Of a stretch of DNA of 64,000 nt, positions 41,298 through 48,627 are shown one piece after another (position 1 is the stretch's first letter; the number at the start of each line of letters is the position of its first letter). The DNA is from Arcobacter venerupis (GTDB lineage: Bacteria > Campylobacterota > Campylobacteria > Campylobacterales > Arcobacteraceae). Made by a program: the position numbers and the translations under genes. The DNA lies in the NCBI RefSeq assembly GCF_013201665.1, contig NZ_CP053840.1:1550001-1614000 (forward strand). Direction: 5' to 3'. The notes beneath the pieces were generated by a model. It was not told the origin of the DNA, did no database searches, and saw nothing but the letters and a program-made list of their open reading frames with translations.

Positions 41298-41318
41298 CAT
41301 TTATAGCTACTTTATTTA
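41288..41318. terminator. Bidirectional intrinsic terminator
   Basis: An 11-base perfect stem (AATAAAGTAGC / GCTACTTTATT) with a 7-base loop between the convergent small membrane-protein gene and hemN. Confidence 0.7.
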
Positions 41319-42683
41319 GATAGTTTTAGAAAATCTTCTTTTATCTTCAGGGATTTTATTTAAATATGCATCAAAAGGCATACAAATATTTCTAATAAGC
41401 ATAGTTCCTGTTTGTGAGACTTTTATTTTTTCATCACTAACTTCTATTAGTTCTGCATCTTGGAACTCTTTAAGAGCCGCTAAGGCATCTGCAAAGTACT
41501 CTTTGAAGTTTATTTTAAACTCTTGCTCAACTCTTGTAATATTTAAAGAGAAATTACTCATTAATTCCATAATTACAAACTGTCTTAATTGGTCATCATC
41601 ACTAAGTCTATAACCTTTAAACACTGGTAAATTTCCATTATCTAAAGCATTTTCCCAAGGTTCTAATTCTTTAAAATTTTGTGCATAATAATCAACACCA
41701 TTTCCAATTGATGTAAGTCCAATTCCAATTAAATCAGCTCCACCTTTTGTTGTATAACCTTGGAAATTTCTATGTAATTCACCTTTTTCAATTGCTTTAA
41801 ATAATTCATCTTCAGGTTTTGCAAAGTGATCCATTCCTACCATTTTATAGCCATTTGATGTGAAAAAATCAATAGTATCTTTTAACATCTCAAGTTTTTC
41901 TTGGGGTGCTGGAAATGTTGATTCATCAAACTTTCTCATAGTTTTCATAAGCCAAGGAACATGGGCATAATTAAAAACTGCAAATCTATCAGTATTTAAT
42001 GTAAGCATTTTTTCTAAAGTTTTTTTGAAACTTTCCCTTGTTTGATGAGGAAGACCATAAATTAAATCCGTATTTACAGAGTGAATTCCAGCATCTCTCG
42101 CAATATTTATCACATTTTGTGTTAATTCAAATGGCTGAATTCTATGAATTGTTTTTTGAACCTCTTCATCTAAATCTTGAACTCCAAAACTTAATCGATT
42201 ACAACCACCAGCTTTTAAAACATTCATATGTTCAACTGTAAAATATCTAGGATCAACTTCACATGAAACTTCAGCATCAGATGCAAAATTTGGAAAAATT
42301 TCTTTTACTGCACTTATAACTTCTTGCAATTGTTCAGGAGTAAAATATGTTGGAGTTCCTCCACCAAAATGCATTTGAGTTACAACTCTTGAAGTATTCA
42401 AATGATTTTTTAAAATATTTAACTCTTTTTTTAGATACTCAATATATCTTGTTTTTTTATCTTCTTTTGAAGTAAAAATTGTGTTACATCCACAAAAATA
42501 ACAAGCACTTCTACAAAATGGCATGTGAATATAAAGAGATATTGCTCTATCATCACTTTGATTTTTGTAATACTCTTTTAAATCTTCTTGGGTAAATGTT
42601 TCACTAAATTCAGGAGCAGTAGGATAAGAAGTATATCGCGGACCTGGTCGTGAATACTTCTCGAATTTTTTAAAATCTATCAT
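41316..42683 (-). CDS. hemN: Oxygen-independent coproporphyrinogen III oxidase
   Basis: 455 residues. Radical-SAM cluster motif C-x3-C-x2-C in MPFCRSACYFCGCN, with the extra cysteine typical of true HemN. GGGTPTYFT and NRLSFGVQDL follow. It oxidatively decarboxylates coproporphyrinogen III without oxygen, using SAM. hemB (48.6-49.6 kb) serves the same pathway. It starts directly after argF (1 base between), so the two share a transcript. Confidence 0.96.
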   Translation of the reverse strand: MIDFKKFEKYSRPGPRYTSYPTAPEFSETFTQEDLKEYYKNQSDDRAISLYIHMPFCRSACYFCGCNTIFTSKEDKKTRYIEYLKKELNILKNHLNTSRVVTQMHFGGGTPTYFTPEQLQEVISAVKEIFPNFASDAEVSCEVDPRYFTVEHMNVLKAGGCNRLSFGVQDLDEEVQKTIHRIQPFELTQNVINIARDAGIHSVNTDLIYGLPHQTRESFKKTLEKMLTLNTDRFAVFNYAHVPWLMKTMRKFDESTFPAPQEKLEMLKDTIDFFTSNGYKMVGMDHFAKPEDELFKAIEKGELHRNFQGYTTKGGADLIGIGLTSIGNGVDYYAQNFKELEPWENALDNGNLPVFKGYRLSDDDQLRQFVIMELMSNFSLNITRVEQEFKINFKEYFADALAALKEFQDAELIEVSDEKIKVSQTGTMLIRNICMPFDAYLNKIPEDKRRFSKTI

Positions 42684-43613
42684 TTATGCTTCGTCTCTTT
42701 TTCTATCAAGCCAAACCATAACACCTTTTTGAGCATGAAGTCTATTTTCAGCTTCTTCAAAAATTAAACTTTGTTTGCTTTCCATTACTTCTTCACTTAC
42801 TTCATAACCTCTATATGCAGGTAAACAGTGTAAGAAAATTGCTTTATCTTGGGCTAATTTCATCATTTCAGCATCAACCATATATCCTGCAAAATCTTTT
42901 ACTCTTTTCTCTTTTTCAGATTCTTGTCCCATAGAAACCCAAGTATCAGTTGTTACTACAGTTGCACCTTTTACAGCCTCTTTAGGGTCATTTGTTATTG
43001 TGATTTTTGCACCACTTAATTTTGCCATTTCAAGAGATTTTGCTAAAATAGAAGCATCAACTTCGTAACCTTTTGGAGTTGCAATTCTAAGTTCAAAACC
43101 TAATTTTGCAGCTAAATTAAGCCATGAATGAGCCATGTTATTTCCATCACCAACATAAGCAGCAACTAAATCTTCCGTTAATCCTGCTTCTTGAATAGTC
43201 ATATAATCAGCCATAAGTTGCACAGGATGATATTCAGTTGTTAAACCATTTATTACAGGAACTTTTGAATATTTTGCAAACTCTTCAATTTTACTATGTT
43301 CAAAAGTTCTAATCATCACCATATCTACCATTCTAGAAATAACTCTTGAAGTATCACTCATTGGCTCACCTCGACCTAGTTGAATGTCATTTGATGAAAG
43401 AAATAAACCAATACCACCTAACTGATAAATCCCTGTTTCAAAAGATACTCTTGTTCGTGTAGAGCTTTTCTCAAAAATCATTCCTAATGTTTTTTTAGGC
43501 ATGTAATCTTTAAAGACTCTAGCTTTAGTTTCATCTTTGATTTGTTTAGCAAGTGTTAATATTTCTAAAATTTCATCTTTAGAATAATCAGCTAATGTTA
43601 AGAAATGTCTCAT
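42684..43613 (-). CDS. argF: Ornithine carbamoyltransferase
   Basis: 309 residues from the ATG at 43613 with AGAGGA upstream; the open frame extends 11 codons further without a ribosome site. Carbamoyl-phosphate motif [22 protein letters not shown] and the ornithine-site HCLPAYRG are intact. It makes citrulline for argininosuccinate synthase. The 224-base gap ahead separates it from the divergent nrdD and must contain both promoters; I see no clear regulator box there. Confidence 0.96.
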
Positions 43614-43837
43614 TTTATTTCCTCTGTAATTAATAAAAACGAACATTCTATTTAATTTAACTTTATAACTACTTAAAAGTTACAGTTTTATAATAAAAAA
43701 ACTTCTAATTTTTCTAATAAATCTAAGCAGTATATTTATAAGAAGTGCCTTTTTATGACACTTTTGTGACAAAAATACTCATTACTTATTAAGAAAATCT
43801 CTCATACAATTACAAAATGTTTAAAAAGGAAATATAA

Positions 43838-45955
43838 ATGATAGAAAATATATTAAAAAGAAATGGTACAAAACAAGAATTTGAATCTTATAAAATAGAA
43901 GATGCAATAAAAAAAGCATTTAAAAGTGTAAATATTCAATATGATATTTCTATATTTTTTAATGTTTTATTTGAAATAAAACAAAAAAGATTAGTTGCAG
44001 TTGAAGATATACAAGATATTATCGAAAAAGAGTTATTTAAAGCTAGATATTTTGATGTAATGAAATCGTTTATTTTATATAGACATTTACATAAAATTCA
44101 AAGGGAACAAATTTTACAAATTGAAAATGATACTACTTATATAAACTCAACACAAACCATTCAAGAGTATATAAATGGTAGTGATTGGAGAATAAAAGCA
44201 AATTCAAATACAGGATATTCTCACGCAGGGCTTATTAATAATAGTGCTGGAAAAGTAATTGCTAATTATTGGCTTGACAAGGTTTATTCAAAAGAAGAGG
44301 GATATGCCCATAGAAATGCTGATTATCATATACATGATTTAGATTGTTTAAGTGGATATTGTGCTGGTTGGTCTTTGAGGGTTTTACTTGATGAGGGATT
44401 TAATAAGGTGCGAGGAAGGGTGGAAAGTTCTGCACCTAATCATTTTAGAGAAGCTTTAGGGCAAATGGCAAATTTTTTGGGAATTTTGCAAAGTGAATGG
44501 GCAGGTGCTCAAGCTTTTAGTAGTTTTGATACTTATTTAGCTCCTTATGTTTTCAAAGATAATTTATCTTATAAAGAAATCAAAAAAGCTGTTAGGTCTT
44601 TTATTTACAATTTAAATGTTCCTGCACGTTGGGGACAAAGTCCTTTTACGAATATTACTATTGATTGGACAGTTCCTGCTGATTTAAAAGATCAAATTCC
44701 AACACGAAACCAAAAACATCTTTTTAAAGATTTCCACAATGATGAATTATTAGAAAAAATCAAAGAAAAAGGTTATAAATCATTTGAAGAACTTACATAC
44801 AAAGATTTCCAAAAACAGATGAATCAAATCAACAAAGCTTATTATGAAATAATGACCCAAGGTGATAAAACAGGGCAACCTTTTACTTTTCCAATTCCAA
44901 CTGTTAATATCACTGAAGATTTTGATTGGTATGGTGAAAATACAGATGTTTTATTTGAAAATACAGCAAAAATAGGAAGTTCATATTTTCAAAATTTTAT
45001 TGGAAGTCAATATGTAAAAGATGAAAATGGCAATCTAATAGAAAATGAAAAAGCTTATAAACCAGGCCATGTGCGTTCTATGTGTTGTAGATTACAACTT
45101 GATTTAAGAGAACTTCTAAAACGAGGTGGTGGTCTTTTTGGTTCAGCTGAAATGACAGGAAGTATTGGAGTTGTAACTATTAATATGGCAAGACTTGGAT
45201 ATTTATATAAAAGTAACATAAATGCCTTACTTCTTAGGATTGAAGAGTTAATGGAATTAGCAAAATCAACTCTTGAAAAGAAAAGAGTATTTGTAAAAGA
45301 TATGTATGATAGAGGGCTTTATCCTTATACAAAAAGGTATTTACCTAATTTTAATAACCATTTTTCTACTATTGGTGTAAATGGAATGAATGAAATGATT
45401 AAAAACTACTTTGGAGAAAATATTGATATTTCTTCAAGTATTGGTAATGAATTTTGTTTAGAAATTTTAGATTTTATGAGAGATAAAATGATTAAGTTTC
45501 AAGAAGAAACGGGAAATTTATATAATCTTGAAGCAACACCAGCAGAGGGTACAACTTATAGATTTGCTAAAGAAGATAAAAAAAGATACAAAGATATTAT
45601 CCAAGGTGGAGTTGGTAAAAACGTCTATTACACCAACTCTTCACAACTTCCTGTTGATTACACAGACGATCCTTTTGAGGCATTAACACTGCAAGATGAA
45701 TTACAATGTAAATATACAGGAGGAACAGTCTTGCATTTATATATGAATGAGAGAATATCATCAATAGATGCTTGTAGAAAATTTGTAAAAAATACTATCA
45801 CAAACTTTAGATTGCCATATATTACTATAACACCGCTTTTTTCAGTTTGTGAAATTCATGGTTATTTAACTGGTGAGCATGAGTATTGCCCAAAATGTGA
45901 TGAAGAAATCTTAAAAAAGGAGTTAGAAAATGATAAAAAAACAAGAATTGCTTGA
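43838..45955 (+). CDS. nrdD: Anaerobic ribonucleoside-triphosphate reductase, catalytic part without glycyl-radical segment
   Basis: 705 residues. ATP-cone at about 1-90, then the class III reductase barrel with SMCCRLQLD and GGGLFGSAEMTGSIGVVTINMARLGY. The C-terminus contains the zinc knuckle (VCEIHG, CPKC) but stops at DKKTRIA before the glycyl-radical motif that every working NrdD needs. That motif is encoded by the next, overlapping gene (45930-46097) in another frame. Reduces NTPs to dNTPs without oxygen, activated by NrdG. The ribosome site is AAAAGGAAA. Confidence 0.93.
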   Translation: MIENILKRNGTKQEFESYKIEDAIKKAFKSVNIQYDISIFFNVLFEIKQKRLVAVEDIQDIIEKELFKARYFDVMKSFILYRHLHKIQREQILQIENDTTYINSTQTIQEYINGSDWRIKANSNTGYSHAGLINNSAGKVIANYWLDKVYSKEEGYAHRNADYHIHDLDCLSGYCAGWSLRVLLDEGFNKVRGRVESSAPNHFREALGQMANFLGILQSEWAGAQAFSSFDTYLAPYVFKDNLSYKEIKKAVRSFIYNLNVPARWGQSPFTNITIDWTVPADLKDQIPTRNQKHLFKDFHNDELLEKIKEKGYKSFEELTYKDFQKQMNQINKAYYEIMTQGDKTGQPFTFPIPTVNITEDFDWYGENTDVLFENTAKIGSSYFQNFIGSQYVKDENGNLIENEKAYKPGHVRSMCCRLQLDLRELLKRGGGLFGSAEMTGSIGVVTINMARLGYLYKSNINALLLRIEELMELAKSTLEKKRVFVKDMYDRGLYPYTKRYLPNFNNHFSTIGVNGMNEMIKNYFGENIDISSSIGNEFCLEILDFMRDKMIKFQEETGNLYNLEATPAEGTTYRFAKEDKKRYKDIIQGGVGKNVYYTNSSQLPVDYTDDPFEALTLQDELQCKYTGGTVLHLYMNERISSIDACRKFVKNTITNFRLPYITITPLFSVCEIHGYLTGEHEYCPKCDEEILKKELENDKKTRIA

Positions 45956-46097
45956 AAAAAACAGTGAAAAAAGAAAAAAGTGTATGGTTTATACTAGGGT
46001 TATGGGTTACCATAGACCAGTTGAGAGTTTTAATATAGGAAAAAAAGGTGAACACAATCAAAGAATTAAATTCATTGAATCAAAAGATTGTATATGA
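45930..46097 (+). CDS. Separately encoded NrdD glycyl-radical domain
   Basis: 55 residues, too short for the usual open-frame lists. It reads from ATG at 45930 with AAAGGAG 7 bases upstream, overlaps nrdD by 26 bases in the +1 frame and overlaps nrdG by 50. The core CMVYTRVMGYHRPVESFN followed by IGKKGEH is the C-terminal glycyl-radical motif of class III reductases (R-V-x-G-Y), with Gly26 as the expected radical site. In usual NrdD proteins this follows the zinc knuckle in one chain. Either the protein works as two chains, or one extra A in the seven-A run near 45935 has broken a fused gene. The dedicated ribosome site favours the first. Confidence 0.8.
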   Translation: MIKKQELLEKNSEKRKKCMVYTRVMGYHRPVESFNIGKKGEHNQRIKFIESKDCI

Positions 46098-46752
46098 TTT
46101 AACTAAATTTACAACAACAGATTATGTAGGACAACTCTCTTGCATAATTTGGTTTGTTTCTTGTAATTTTAGATGTTTGTATTGCTATAATGATAATATA
46201 GTTTATACAAAAGAGGGAAAATACTCTCAAAATGATATTTTGGATTTTTTAAAAACAAGAGTTGGATTATTAGATTCTGTAGTTTTATCAGGTGGAGAAG
46301 CGACAGTTCATAATGTTATACCAATTTGCAAAGAGATAAAAAAACTTGGGTTTAAAATAAAACTTGATACCAATGCTACTAATCTAAAACAAATTAAAGA
46401 GCTGATTAATTTAAATTTATTAGATTACATAGCTATTGATTTTAAAGCACCAAAATACAAATTTAAAGAACTTACATGTGTAAGTATCTATGATAATAGT
46501 ATTAAGACTATACAATATTTAATAAATATAGGTTTTAATTTTGAACTCAGATCCACTATAAACTCAGCACTTTTAGATGAAAATGATATAAATGAGATGA
46601 TAAAAATTATAAAAGAGTTAAACTATAAAAATATTTACTATCTACAAAATTTTCTCGAAACACCTTCTAATATAGGGAATATTTCCAAAGCCCAAGATAT
46701 AGATAAAAGTAAAATAAATTCTTTAGATTTAATCATTCAATACAGAAATTAA
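46048..46752 (+). CDS. nrdG: Anaerobic ribonucleotide reductase activating protein (radical SAM)
   Basis: 234 residues from a GTG at 46048; the upstream ribosome site is weak and TTG at 46075 is an alternative. The radical-SAM cluster C-x3-C-x2-C is in CNFRCLYCYN, and VVLSGGEATVH is the SAM-binding GGE motif. NrdG uses SAM and an iron-sulfur cluster to place the radical on the glycine of NrdD, here on the small separate domain. It overlaps that gene, and its end overlaps the convergent response-regulator gene by 24 bases. Confidence 0.9.
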   Translation: MNTIKELNSLNQKIVYDLTKFTTTDYVGQLSCIIWFVSCNFRCLYCYNDNIVYTKEGKYSQNDILDFLKTRVGLLDSVVLSGGEATVHNVIPICKEIKKLGFKIKLDTNATNLKQIKELINLNLLDYIAIDFKAPKYKFKELTCVSIYDNSIKTIQYLINIGFNFELRSTINSALLDENDINEMIKIIKELNYKNIYYLQNFLETPSNIGNISKAQDIDKSKINSLDLIIQYRN

Positions 46753-47409
46753 ATATCCTTGAGAAGATATATTTTCTATTAAATCTTTCGAGGTTTTTAA
46801 TCTTAATCTTTTAATAAAAGTTCTTAATCTTTCATCATTTACTTCTTCATTCCATAAAGATTTTTTGATTGCAGAGCTTGAAACTATATTGTTTTTATTT
46901 TTTATTAGAAGATGGAAAAACTCTTTTTCTCTTTTCGTAAGAGTTATTAAAATCGTTTTTTTATATAAAGACATAGAGTTGTTATCAAAAATATACTCAT
47001 CTTTTAAATTAACTTTTTTTTGTTTATTTAATTTAGGAGCAATTTTATTTATGTGTTCTAGTACTTCTTCAGGATCAAAAGGCTTTATAAAATATTTACT
47101 TATACCCAAATCAATAGCTTTTAAAAGTTTTTCCTTTTCTGAGTGGGCACTTAATACTATTATTGGTATAAACTCATCCAATTCTTTTATTTTTTGCGTC
47201 ATTTGCAAACCATCACAAATGGGCATCATAATATCTGTAATTATAATATCAGGTTTAAAAATTTGAAATTTTTTTAATCCCTCATTACCATCTTTTGCAA
47301 TTACAACAGAAAAAAATGAGTCAGATATTGCATCTTTTAGTAGTTGTGCTAATCTTTTTTCATCTTCTACAATTAAAATTTTTAATGTTTTTAATAAATC
47401 TTTATTCAT
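46729..47409 (-). CDS. OmpR-family response regulator
   Basis: 226 residues. Receiver domain about 8-125 with ILIVEDEKRLAQ, phospho-acceptor in IIITDIMMPICDG and YFIKPFDPEE; winged-helix output domain about 140-226 (LTKREKEFFHLLIKNKN, RTFIKRLRLKT). It follows its kinase by 3 bases and forms a two-component pair. Its 3' end overlaps nrdG by 24 bases. The target genes are unknown; the adjacent ribonucleotide reductase genes and argF/hemN are candidates by position only. Confidence 0.92.
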   Translation of the reverse strand: MNKDLLKTLKILIVEDEKRLAQLLKDAISDSFFSVVIAKDGNEGLKKFQIFKPDIIITDIMMPICDGLQMTQKIKELDEFIPIIVLSAHSEKEKLLKAIDLGISKYFIKPFDPEEVLEHINKIAPKLNKQKKVNLKDEYIFDNNSMSLYKKTILITLTKREKEFFHLLIKNKNNIVSSSAIKKSLWNEEVNDERLRTFIKRLRLKTSKDLIENISSQGYLISVLND

Positions 47410-47412
47410 CTG

Positions 47413-48627
47413 TTAACCTAATAGTAATTTTATGCTGAAAATAGAACCATCATCACAATTTTCATGACTTAATTCACCTTCTAAACTTTTTTCTATAATC
47501 ATTTTAGACATAAAAAGTCCAAGACCTGTACCTTGACTTTTATATTTTGTTGTAAAGTAAGGATCAAATATTTTATCAATATTCTCTTTACTTATTCCAC
47601 CTGCATTATCTTTTATTTCAAGTAAGGCATATTTTTTATCTAAAATTTGCTTTTGTTTTAGTGTAATTATAATAGTTCTATTTGTTATACCATTTTGAAC
47701 AAAGGCATCTTTTGAGTTTTGAATTAGGTTTATAATCACTTGAGAAAGCTCGTTTAATACGCCAATTACTTTATAATTAATTGGAACATCTATTTGAATA
47801 TGAATATTTTCTGATTCTATTACTTTTCTTAAAATTACTAAAGCTTCATTTATGGCATCTTTTATTTCAAAACTCTTTTTCTCTTTTTGTGGTTTAAAAA
47901 AATTCGTAAAATCATCTATTGTTGAAGACATACTTAGGATTAAAGTTTTACTCTCTTTATATAATTCATCTACTTTTTTTTCATTATTATTTAGAAAAGC
48001 TTTTTTCATATTAAAAAGTGTGAGATTAAGTTCAGTTAATGGCTGTCTCCATTGATGTGCAATATTTGCTAACATTTGCCCAAGACTTGCCATTCTTGAT
48101 TGCCAAAATAGAAGTTTTTGTTTCTCTTCATTTTTTTTAATCTCTTCAATTACTCTTTTTTCTAGGGTTTTATTTAACTCTTTTAATTGTTTTGTCTGTT
48201 CTTTTACTTTTATTTCAAGATTTAAATTTAACTGCTCAAGCTCTTTCTCTTTTAATTCAAGTCTTTTTTTGAGTTCAACTTCAGAAGTTACATCATATCT
48301 AATTGCTATAAACTCAATAATATTTCCATTTAGATCTAAAATAGGGGTTATTGTTGTATTTAAATAGACAGTTTCTTTATTTTTTGTTAGATTTTTTACA
48401 GTTGCTTTATAAGATTTTTTTTCGAGAATTGTTTCCCAAAGGGTTTCAAAGTTAGAAGTTGGTACTTCTGGATGTCTTACGATGTTGTGATTTTGACCAA
48501 TCAATTCATCATAAGAGTATCCAGAGATTTTACAAAACTCATCATTTACAAAAGTAATAATTCCATTTATATCAGTTTTTGATACGATATTTGAATTTTC
48601 AATTGCTTCTTGATAAGTATTGCTCAT
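47413..48627 (-). CDS. PAS-domain sensor histidine kinase, cytoplasmic
   Basis: 404 residues, no membrane helix. A PAS domain at about 5-115 has the redox-type motif GQNHNIVRHPEVP seen in Aer-like PAS domains that bind FAD or haem; coiled coil about 120-175; H-box ANIAHQWRQPLTEL; ATPase with LIQNSKDAF, DNAGGI and GTGLGLFMSK. It probably senses redox state in the cytoplasm (inference from the PAS motif) and phosphorylates the adjacent regulator. hemB follows 3 bases upstream on the same strand. Confidence 0.92.
   Translation of the reverse strand: MSNTYQEAIENSNIVSKTDINGIITFVNDEFCKISGYSYDELIGQNHNIVRHPEVPTSNFETLWETILEKKSYKATVKNLTKNKETVYLNTTITPILDLNGNIIEFIAIRYDVTSEVELKKRLELKEKELEQLNLNLEIKVKEQTKQLKELNKTLEKRVIEEIKKNEEKQKLLFWQSRMASLGQMLANIAHQWRQPLTELNLTLFNMKKAFLNNNEKKVDELYKESKTLILSMSSTIDDFTNFFKPQKEKKSFEIKDAINEALVILRKVIESENIHIQIDVPINYKVIGVLNELSQVIINLIQNSKDAFVQNGITNRTIIITLKQKQILDKKYALLEIKDNAGGISKENIDKIFDPYFTTKYKSQGTGLGLFMSKMIIEKSLEGELSHENCDDGSIFSIKLLLG

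Follow-up and report, generated by a model that had tools for sequence, protein, structure and literature searches.

Where is the radical site of the anaerobic (class III) ribonucleotide reductase (RNR) encoded in a 64,000-nucleotide stretch of the Arcobacter venerupis genome (the window), given that its nrdD gene stops short of the glycyl-radical motif? A sequence-only reading had placed the motif on a small overlapping gene with its own start, as the only radical source, loaded by NrdG and resembling GrcA (YfiD) of pyruvate formate-lyase (PFL); it left open that an extra A in a seven-A run had broken a fused gene, or that slippage restores it. We confirm the split, and the relevant features are as follows.

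43838..45955 (+): nrdD core subunit (D), with ATP cone, catalytic barrel and zinc knuckle, ending without a glycyl-radical motif
45080..45091 (+): finger-loop M415-C416-C417-R418, of the double-cysteine (MCCR) type
45848..45898 (+): zinc knuckle, C671-x2-H674-x9-C684-x2-C687
45916..45922 (+): Shine-Dalgarno sequence AAAGGAG of the small gene, inside nrdD
45930..46097 (+): small gene S, a 55-aa glycyl-radical subunit
45930..45955 (+): 26-nt overlap of nrdD and S (+1 frame)
45996..46010 (+): R23-V-M-G26-Y radical motif, with the predicted radical Gly26 at 46005-46007
46048..46752 (+): nrdG, a radical-SAM activase of NrdG2 type, overlapping S by 50 nt from the listed GTG

D is an open frame of 705 aa ending in CEIHGYLTGEHEYCPKCDEEILKKELENDKKTRIA, with no R-V-x-G-Y. 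Profile searches match PF03477 to residues 4–86 and PF13597 (535 bits) to residues 122–689, the latter covering profile positions 2–529 of 562; NF006126 also matches. The MCCR finger loop, a class described previously (PMC9669993), and all four zinc-knuckle residues are invariant in our alignment, the role of zinc being inferred from solved NrdDs. S, starting at the ATG at 45930, carries YTRVMGYHRPVESFNIGK and matches the missing PF13597 positions 530–562 (E 4.1e-7), such that D and S occupy complementary, abutting parts of one profile. RVMGY is invariant in 35 aligned S proteins. The neighbouring nrdG matches TIGR02495 (NrdG2) at 180.7 bits, over a cut-off of 131.15. D and S each give one match in the single-contig genome.

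To address whether S is a genuine gene, we compared start signals and substitution patterns. A Shine-Dalgarno match of 5 nt or more precedes 167 of 175 distinct S starts, against 151 of 2862 in-frame internal nrdD ATGs, although the S start was chosen as the best Shine-Dalgarno candidate, which favours it. Of nucleotide differences between the window S and 171 others, 2686 of 3919 lie at third codon positions, indicating purifying selection on S. In the family, 84 of 104 genomes have a strong S match, each on an open frame of 34–76 aa. Of 397 genomes in the phylum, 185 carry the motif, with the best match on an ORF of 49–93 aa in 182 and on a fused one in 3. The system is dispensable: 20 of the 104 family genomes lack a strong S match, and 190 of the 397 phylum genomes lack any NRDD match.

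The split is found across Campylobacterota and, outside it, in plasmid and viral records only, chromosomes of other phyla not having been searched. Alpha-, beta- and gammaproteobacterial split loci occur, for example on plasmid pHG1 of Cupriavidus necator H16, where D and S are separated by a 142-nt gap and where nrdDG is reported to be essential for complete denitrification (PMC2864759). The same architecture appears in RefSeq annotation of Sulfuricurvum, Sulfuricystis, Azospira, Bradyrhizobium, Cupriavidus and Shinella plasmids. Although a homopolymer at the junction is a classic error site, this recurrence in many independent genomes, with the selection on S, leaves a sequencing error or a recently broken pseudogene extremely unlikely.

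Programmed frameshifting or slippage on the A-run, joining D and S into one chain, is likewise very unlikely. In the window and most overlapping loci S is in the +1 frame, and 21 of 72 overlapping loci have a run of 7 or more A or T; the shared +1 relation would not by itself exclude frameshifting there. Such a run occurs, however, in only 26 of all 159 distinct linked loci, in which the relative frames +1/+2/0 are distributed 69/51/39, D–S spacing runs from −59 to +1160 nt and 32 gaps exceed 50 nt. Close relatives (loci L003–L006 of our survey) keep the split with the A-run shortened or interrupted, L004 by a G. Two genes (PAC_bac and NifU_N) lie between D and S in L046, and one of them was matched in each of L061 and L044. 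In seven genomes, S sits with nrdG at least 58 kb from the only nrdD. The exclusion of frameshifting rests on these other lineages and on L004.

A third possibility is that D holds its own radical glycine, for example in the HGY of the zinc knuckle, with S only a GrcA-like repair part. The HGY glycine is invariant in D (G675); in C. necator NrdD it is residue 650, and Gly-650 appears to have been named as the radical site (Siedow 1999). However, naturally fused relatives (L130, L133, L146 and L148) have both HGY and RVMGY, so HGY belongs to the zinc knuckle, and in Thermotoga maritima and T4 NrdD the radical glycine is in a C-terminal loop after the zinc domain. We consider this reading improbable.

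The fused forms L129/L130 and L133 lie inside split clades, and an AU test rejects them as one clade (p 1.1e-4). The direction of change, split to fused or the reverse, is not proven, because rooting is uncertain and two branches (L112 and L147) are very long. Dereplication before the tree used labels in which at least five loci were wrongly scored as fused, KIHGY in the zinc knuckle having matched a loose pattern; the tree itself used corrected labels. ORFs reading RVTGF (L147) or RCMGY (L181, L216) were not counted in the locus table, which required R-V/I/T-x-G-Y.

An AlphaFold2 (AF2) model of a joined proxy has a pLDDT of 85, and its residues 81–746 align with 85–735 of 8p2s_B (Z 34.3, RMSD 2.5 Å over 555 residues, only the first and last aligned residues being reported). 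The chains are joined by an artificial step, so docking is partly imposed, and the junction (701–710) has pLDDT under 50. Although we saw no protein, radical or activity data for any split locus, the comparative evidence supports, with high confidence, a class III RNR whose catalytic enzyme is made of two chains, with its only glycyl radical on the small one. S, which carries the glycyl-radical loop and C-terminal tail, is translated from its own start, coupled to nrdD by overlap here. We infer that NrdG makes a glycyl radical on Gly26 of S, and, from solved NrdDs and the model, that S inserts its RVMGY loop into the D barrel beside the zinc knuckle, where the radical passes to a finger-loop cysteine and on to the substrate. 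We also infer that a separate S could be replaced after oxygen cleavage without remaking the large D chain.

The locus shares its core family and fold, zinc knuckle, glycyl loop and NrdG-type activase with single-chain NrdDs (Prevotella copri 8p23/8p2s, T. maritima 4coi and phage T4 1h7b/1hk8), from which it differs in having the glycyl loop and C-terminal tail as a separate 55-aa gene product. The comparison with GrcA/YfiD of Escherichia coli, which extends to Y06I of phage T4, holds as an analogy: each is a small separate protein bearing, by inference in the case of S, a glycyl radical for a larger glycyl radical enzyme (PMC8683613), yet S belongs to the NrdD family (PF13597) and not to Gly_radical PF01228, of which the window's genome has no match at E ≤ 0.01. 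S would be the only radical source of an enzyme lacking its own site, not a repair part for a damaged complete enzyme. In the split class II RNR NrdJa–NrdJb of Pseudomonas aeruginosa the C-terminal part is also a separate essential subunit (PMC4520616), but that enzyme is AdoCbl-dependent, and NrdJb mediates disulfide exchange and carries no radical; the one PF02867 gene of the window's genome lies elsewhere. Phage nrdD genes split by introns, inteins or unknown events (PMC3653736) are, as described there, gene interruptions in single phages, whereas here a domain-boundary split with its own start signals is kept across lineages. We found no description of a split class III RNR or a stand-alone NrdD radical protein in the openly licensed PMC papers searched.

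Unexpectedly, and beyond what the sequence-only reading could see, stand-alone S genes lie in Mu-like prophages and in viral records without an nrdD core (37 of 40), recalling T4 Y06I. This evidence rests on prophages and IMG/VR contigs; named, annotated phages (INPHARED) gave no match to the window S at E ≤ 0.01 and only weak matches (E 0.1–0.6) to a prophage S. Of 30 neighbour proteins tested against PHROGs, 10 had no match (both of L247, both of L260, two of L201 and one each of L253, L216, L202 and L209); the L179 neighbour tested, and those with hits in L183 and L202, matched only PHROGs of unknown function. The radical glycine, in an RxxGY-type motif, is kept in 224 of 225 distinct S-like ORFs, fused ones included, the exception being a fused one reading RVTGF. 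Eight orphan copies share 36–46 of 45–52 aligned residues with the same genome's operon S, and T4 Y06I is a phage-borne spare part for PFL (PMC8683613). That the phage proteins are instead inhibitors or neutral cargo is doubtful but possible, in the absence of functional data and with one copy reading RCMGY (L181). A bolder hypothesis, about as likely as not, is that the radical-bearing subunit is an autonomous, mobile part: bacteria of at least two phyla would run a two-chain glycyl radical enzyme, and phages would carry only the small subunit, charged by the host NrdG and inserted into the host NrdD, to restore or raise dNTP supply during infection. This would be the NrdD counterpart of Y06I and would give phrog_4132, of unknown function, a role.

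The system would be a natural two-chain glycyl radical enzyme in which the protein radical is delivered by a replaceable small subunit, separating radical loading from catalysis, so that questions long studied on single chains (how the activase reaches a buried glycine, how the loop re-enters the barrel and how oxygen damage is repaired) become testable by mixing purified parts. Spare parts have been speculated to exist for other glycyl radical enzymes, with only those of PFL validated (PMC8683613); the S proteins are candidates for class III RNR. The finding also suggests looking again at which glycine carries the radical in C. necator. Gene surveys that take the long ORF as the whole enzyme miss the radical site, and the phage copies point to a possible overlooked way of raising host DNA precursor supply.

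The locus comprises three consecutive ORFs, all on the + strand, flanked by ORFs on the opposite strand.

43838-45955, + strand: nrdD (its product, D)
45930-46097, + strand: a 55-aa ORF (S)
46048-46752, + strand: nrdG
41316-42683 and 42684-43646, - strand: upstream ORFs that look, by eye, like HemN and ornithine carbamoyltransferase
46729-47409 and 47413-48627, - strand: downstream ORFs that look, by eye, like a response regulator and a PAS histidine kinase

The nrdD product matches PF13597 at profile positions 2-529 of 562 and S matches at 530-562 (E 4.1e-7), so the two ORFs are complementary parts of one family model. NrdD also possesses an ATP cone (PF03477), and NrdG scores above cut-off for TIGR02495 (NrdG2). 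The genome, a single 3.2-Mb contig, contains one match each for S and D, one Ribonuc_red_lgC gene and no Gly_radical (PF01228) match; S is therefore the only glycyl-radical motif of these two families found in the genome.

To address the potential for artefact, raised in the sequence-only reading as one extra A in a seven-A run breaking a fused gene, we searched the same family, where 85 of 104 genomes match S at E<=0.01. Of these, 84 match at 6e-14 or better, each on an open frame of 34-76 aa, the 85th match being weak. Of 112 sequences in hand (this locus and 111 others, some redundant), 107 show nrdD stopping before a separate short ORF with the motif; three more have S further downstream, and in two no S is found before the contig ends. 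Four close relatives (loci L003-L006) have the A-run shortened or interrupted and are still split.

Across the phylum, PF13597 is found in 207 of 397 genomes and S in 185 of 397. The best match of a genome lies on an ORF over 600 aa in three cases, and on an ORF of 49-93 aa in the other 182. Of the 22 genomes with an NRDD match but no S, 17 encode a distant single-chain NrdD (loci L112-L128; 78-107 bits to that of the window), with an RITGY tail in the loci inspected; one further genome also has a distant single chain, and in another the locus is cut near a contig end. One genome (G424) has S and nrdG but no NRDD core in a 100-contig assembly, perhaps an assembly gap, and another (G317) has two nrdD-S-nrdG regions, in one of which nrdD reads in two frames.

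We next compared the anatomy of the junction. After merging rows with the same S and spacing (207 rows to 175, with nine fused rows set apart), 159 are linked to nrdD, 11 of them outside Campylobacterota. The relative frame is +1 in 69, +2 in 51 and 0 in 39; 72 overlap, 55 have gaps of 0-50 nt and 32 have gaps over 50 nt (range -59 to +1160). The chosen start is ATG in 174 of 175, and a Shine-Dalgarno match of 5 nt or more precedes 167 of 175, against 151 of 2862 internal in-frame nrdD ATGs, although the S start was picked as the best candidate, which biases this upward. Nucleotide differences between the window S and 171 others fall at codon positions 1/2/3 as 723/510/2686.

Gene order and distance also vary. 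In one locus (L046) a PAC_bac-like and a NifU_N-like ORF lie between nrdD and S, with a PAC_bac-like ORF alone in a second (L061) and a NifU_N-like ORF alone in a third (L044); in a fourth (L228) the order is nrdD, nrdG, S. In five genomes of another genus, about 1.5-1.8 kb separate the NRDD core match from S. In seven genomes of one genus, S sits directly before nrdG while the only NRDD core lies at least 58 kb away, also if the contigs are circular.

A plasmid search with NrdD found 67 records, of which we examined 18 regions. Twelve show the split: Sulfuricurvum (Campylobacterota), Sulfuricystis, Azospira, Bradyrhizobium (two), Thiothrix, Cupriavidus necator H16, C. metallidurans, Paracoccus, Cereibacter, Shinella and Aquabacterium. 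Four are fused (Acidiphilium, Acidithiobacillus, Actinomyces oris and Geoalkalibacter), and two distant NrdDs, from Cytobacillus and Methanomethylovorans, are single chains. The small ORF is labelled 'nrdD, anaerobic ribonucleoside-triphosphate reductase' in eight of the twelve records, by a like name in Bradyrhizobium NK6 and 'hypothetical protein' in Paracoccus, with no feature listed there in Cereibacter and C. metallidurans; the C. metallidurans genes have been listed as Rmet_5137 and Rmet_5139, leaving out the number between. On the Thiothrix fructosivorans plasmid, nrdD matches in two frames and is not annotated, although S and nrdG are. In H16 (plasmid pHG1) the gap is 142 nt, with AAGGAG before the S ATG; residue 650 of H16 NrdD is the glycine of the zinc-knuckle THGY, and the RVMGY motif is on the small ORF. 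RNRdb (PMC2795772) and class III reviews, structures and phylogenies do not mention a split NrdD in the parts we consulted, but the split is visible in RefSeq annotation, so curators may know it.

In a tree of 55 NrdD cores, two fused genes (L129 and L130) lie inside a nine-row clade of otherwise split genes (support 100/100), and a third (L133) is sister to two split genes (99/99). The data reject these three as one clade (p 1.1e-4) and all seven fused rows as one clade (p 1e-9, a set with two very long branches). Splitting or joining has thus happened several times; joining within split clades is the simpler reading, but the root is uncertain.

A proxy chain of D plus S residues 9-55 was modelled with AF2, giving a mean pLDDT of 85 and pTM of 0.80, with the artificial junction (701-710) below 50. 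The model aligns to P. copri NrdD (8p2s_B) over 555 residues, model 81-746 to chain 85-735 (RMSD 2.5 Å, Z 34.3); the range ends inside the glycyl-radical domain, but only the first and last aligned residues are reported. The proxy ties the chains together, so this shows compatibility, not binding.

Unexpectedly, strong extra S copies occur in nine genomes. In the nine such loci examined (2.6-7 kb each), no nrdD or nrdG match lies beside them. Neighbours include a transposase, a DNA transposition protein and Mu Gam (L215), a transposase and a DNA transposition protein (L207), a tail sheath (L216), a tail assembly chaperone (L201) and an integrase (L209); neighbours of L247 gave no hit, and those of L179 and L183 only PHROGs of unknown function. 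In IMG/VR, 53 contigs encode S-like sequence, some near-identical to each other. In 50 of 53 the S ORF stands without an NRDD core or NrdG match in the flank retrieved; two have a core and one gave no ORF. Of 40 of these 53 assessed over the whole record, 39 match PF13597, two with the core and 37 with the glycyl piece (one of which also has a weak match to positions 503-529), and one has no match; records may be fragments, so absence is not proof. Three S-like matches contain in-frame TGA codons, perhaps recoded phages or broken copies. Three contigs (L250, L253 and L281) carry tape-measure, portal and lysis genes, and five S proteins match phrog_4132, of unknown function, at E 2.2e-4 to 7.9e-12. 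Viral NrdDs are both split and fused, at least ten of the fused ones having what appears by eye to be a thioredoxin-like extension at the C terminus, after the glycyl loop. YfiD and T4 Y06I are described as spare parts for PFL and the only validated ones, with speculation about others (PMC8683613); PMC4520616 deals with the split class II RNR of Pseudomonas aeruginosa.

The sequence-only reading, that the glycyl-radical motif is encoded by its own overlapping small gene, is right, and the alternatives it offered, a broken fused gene or slippage, are excluded as far as sequence can tell. Its interpretation, a radical site on a separate chain that would be loaded by NrdG as the only radical source, is well supported at the level of genes.
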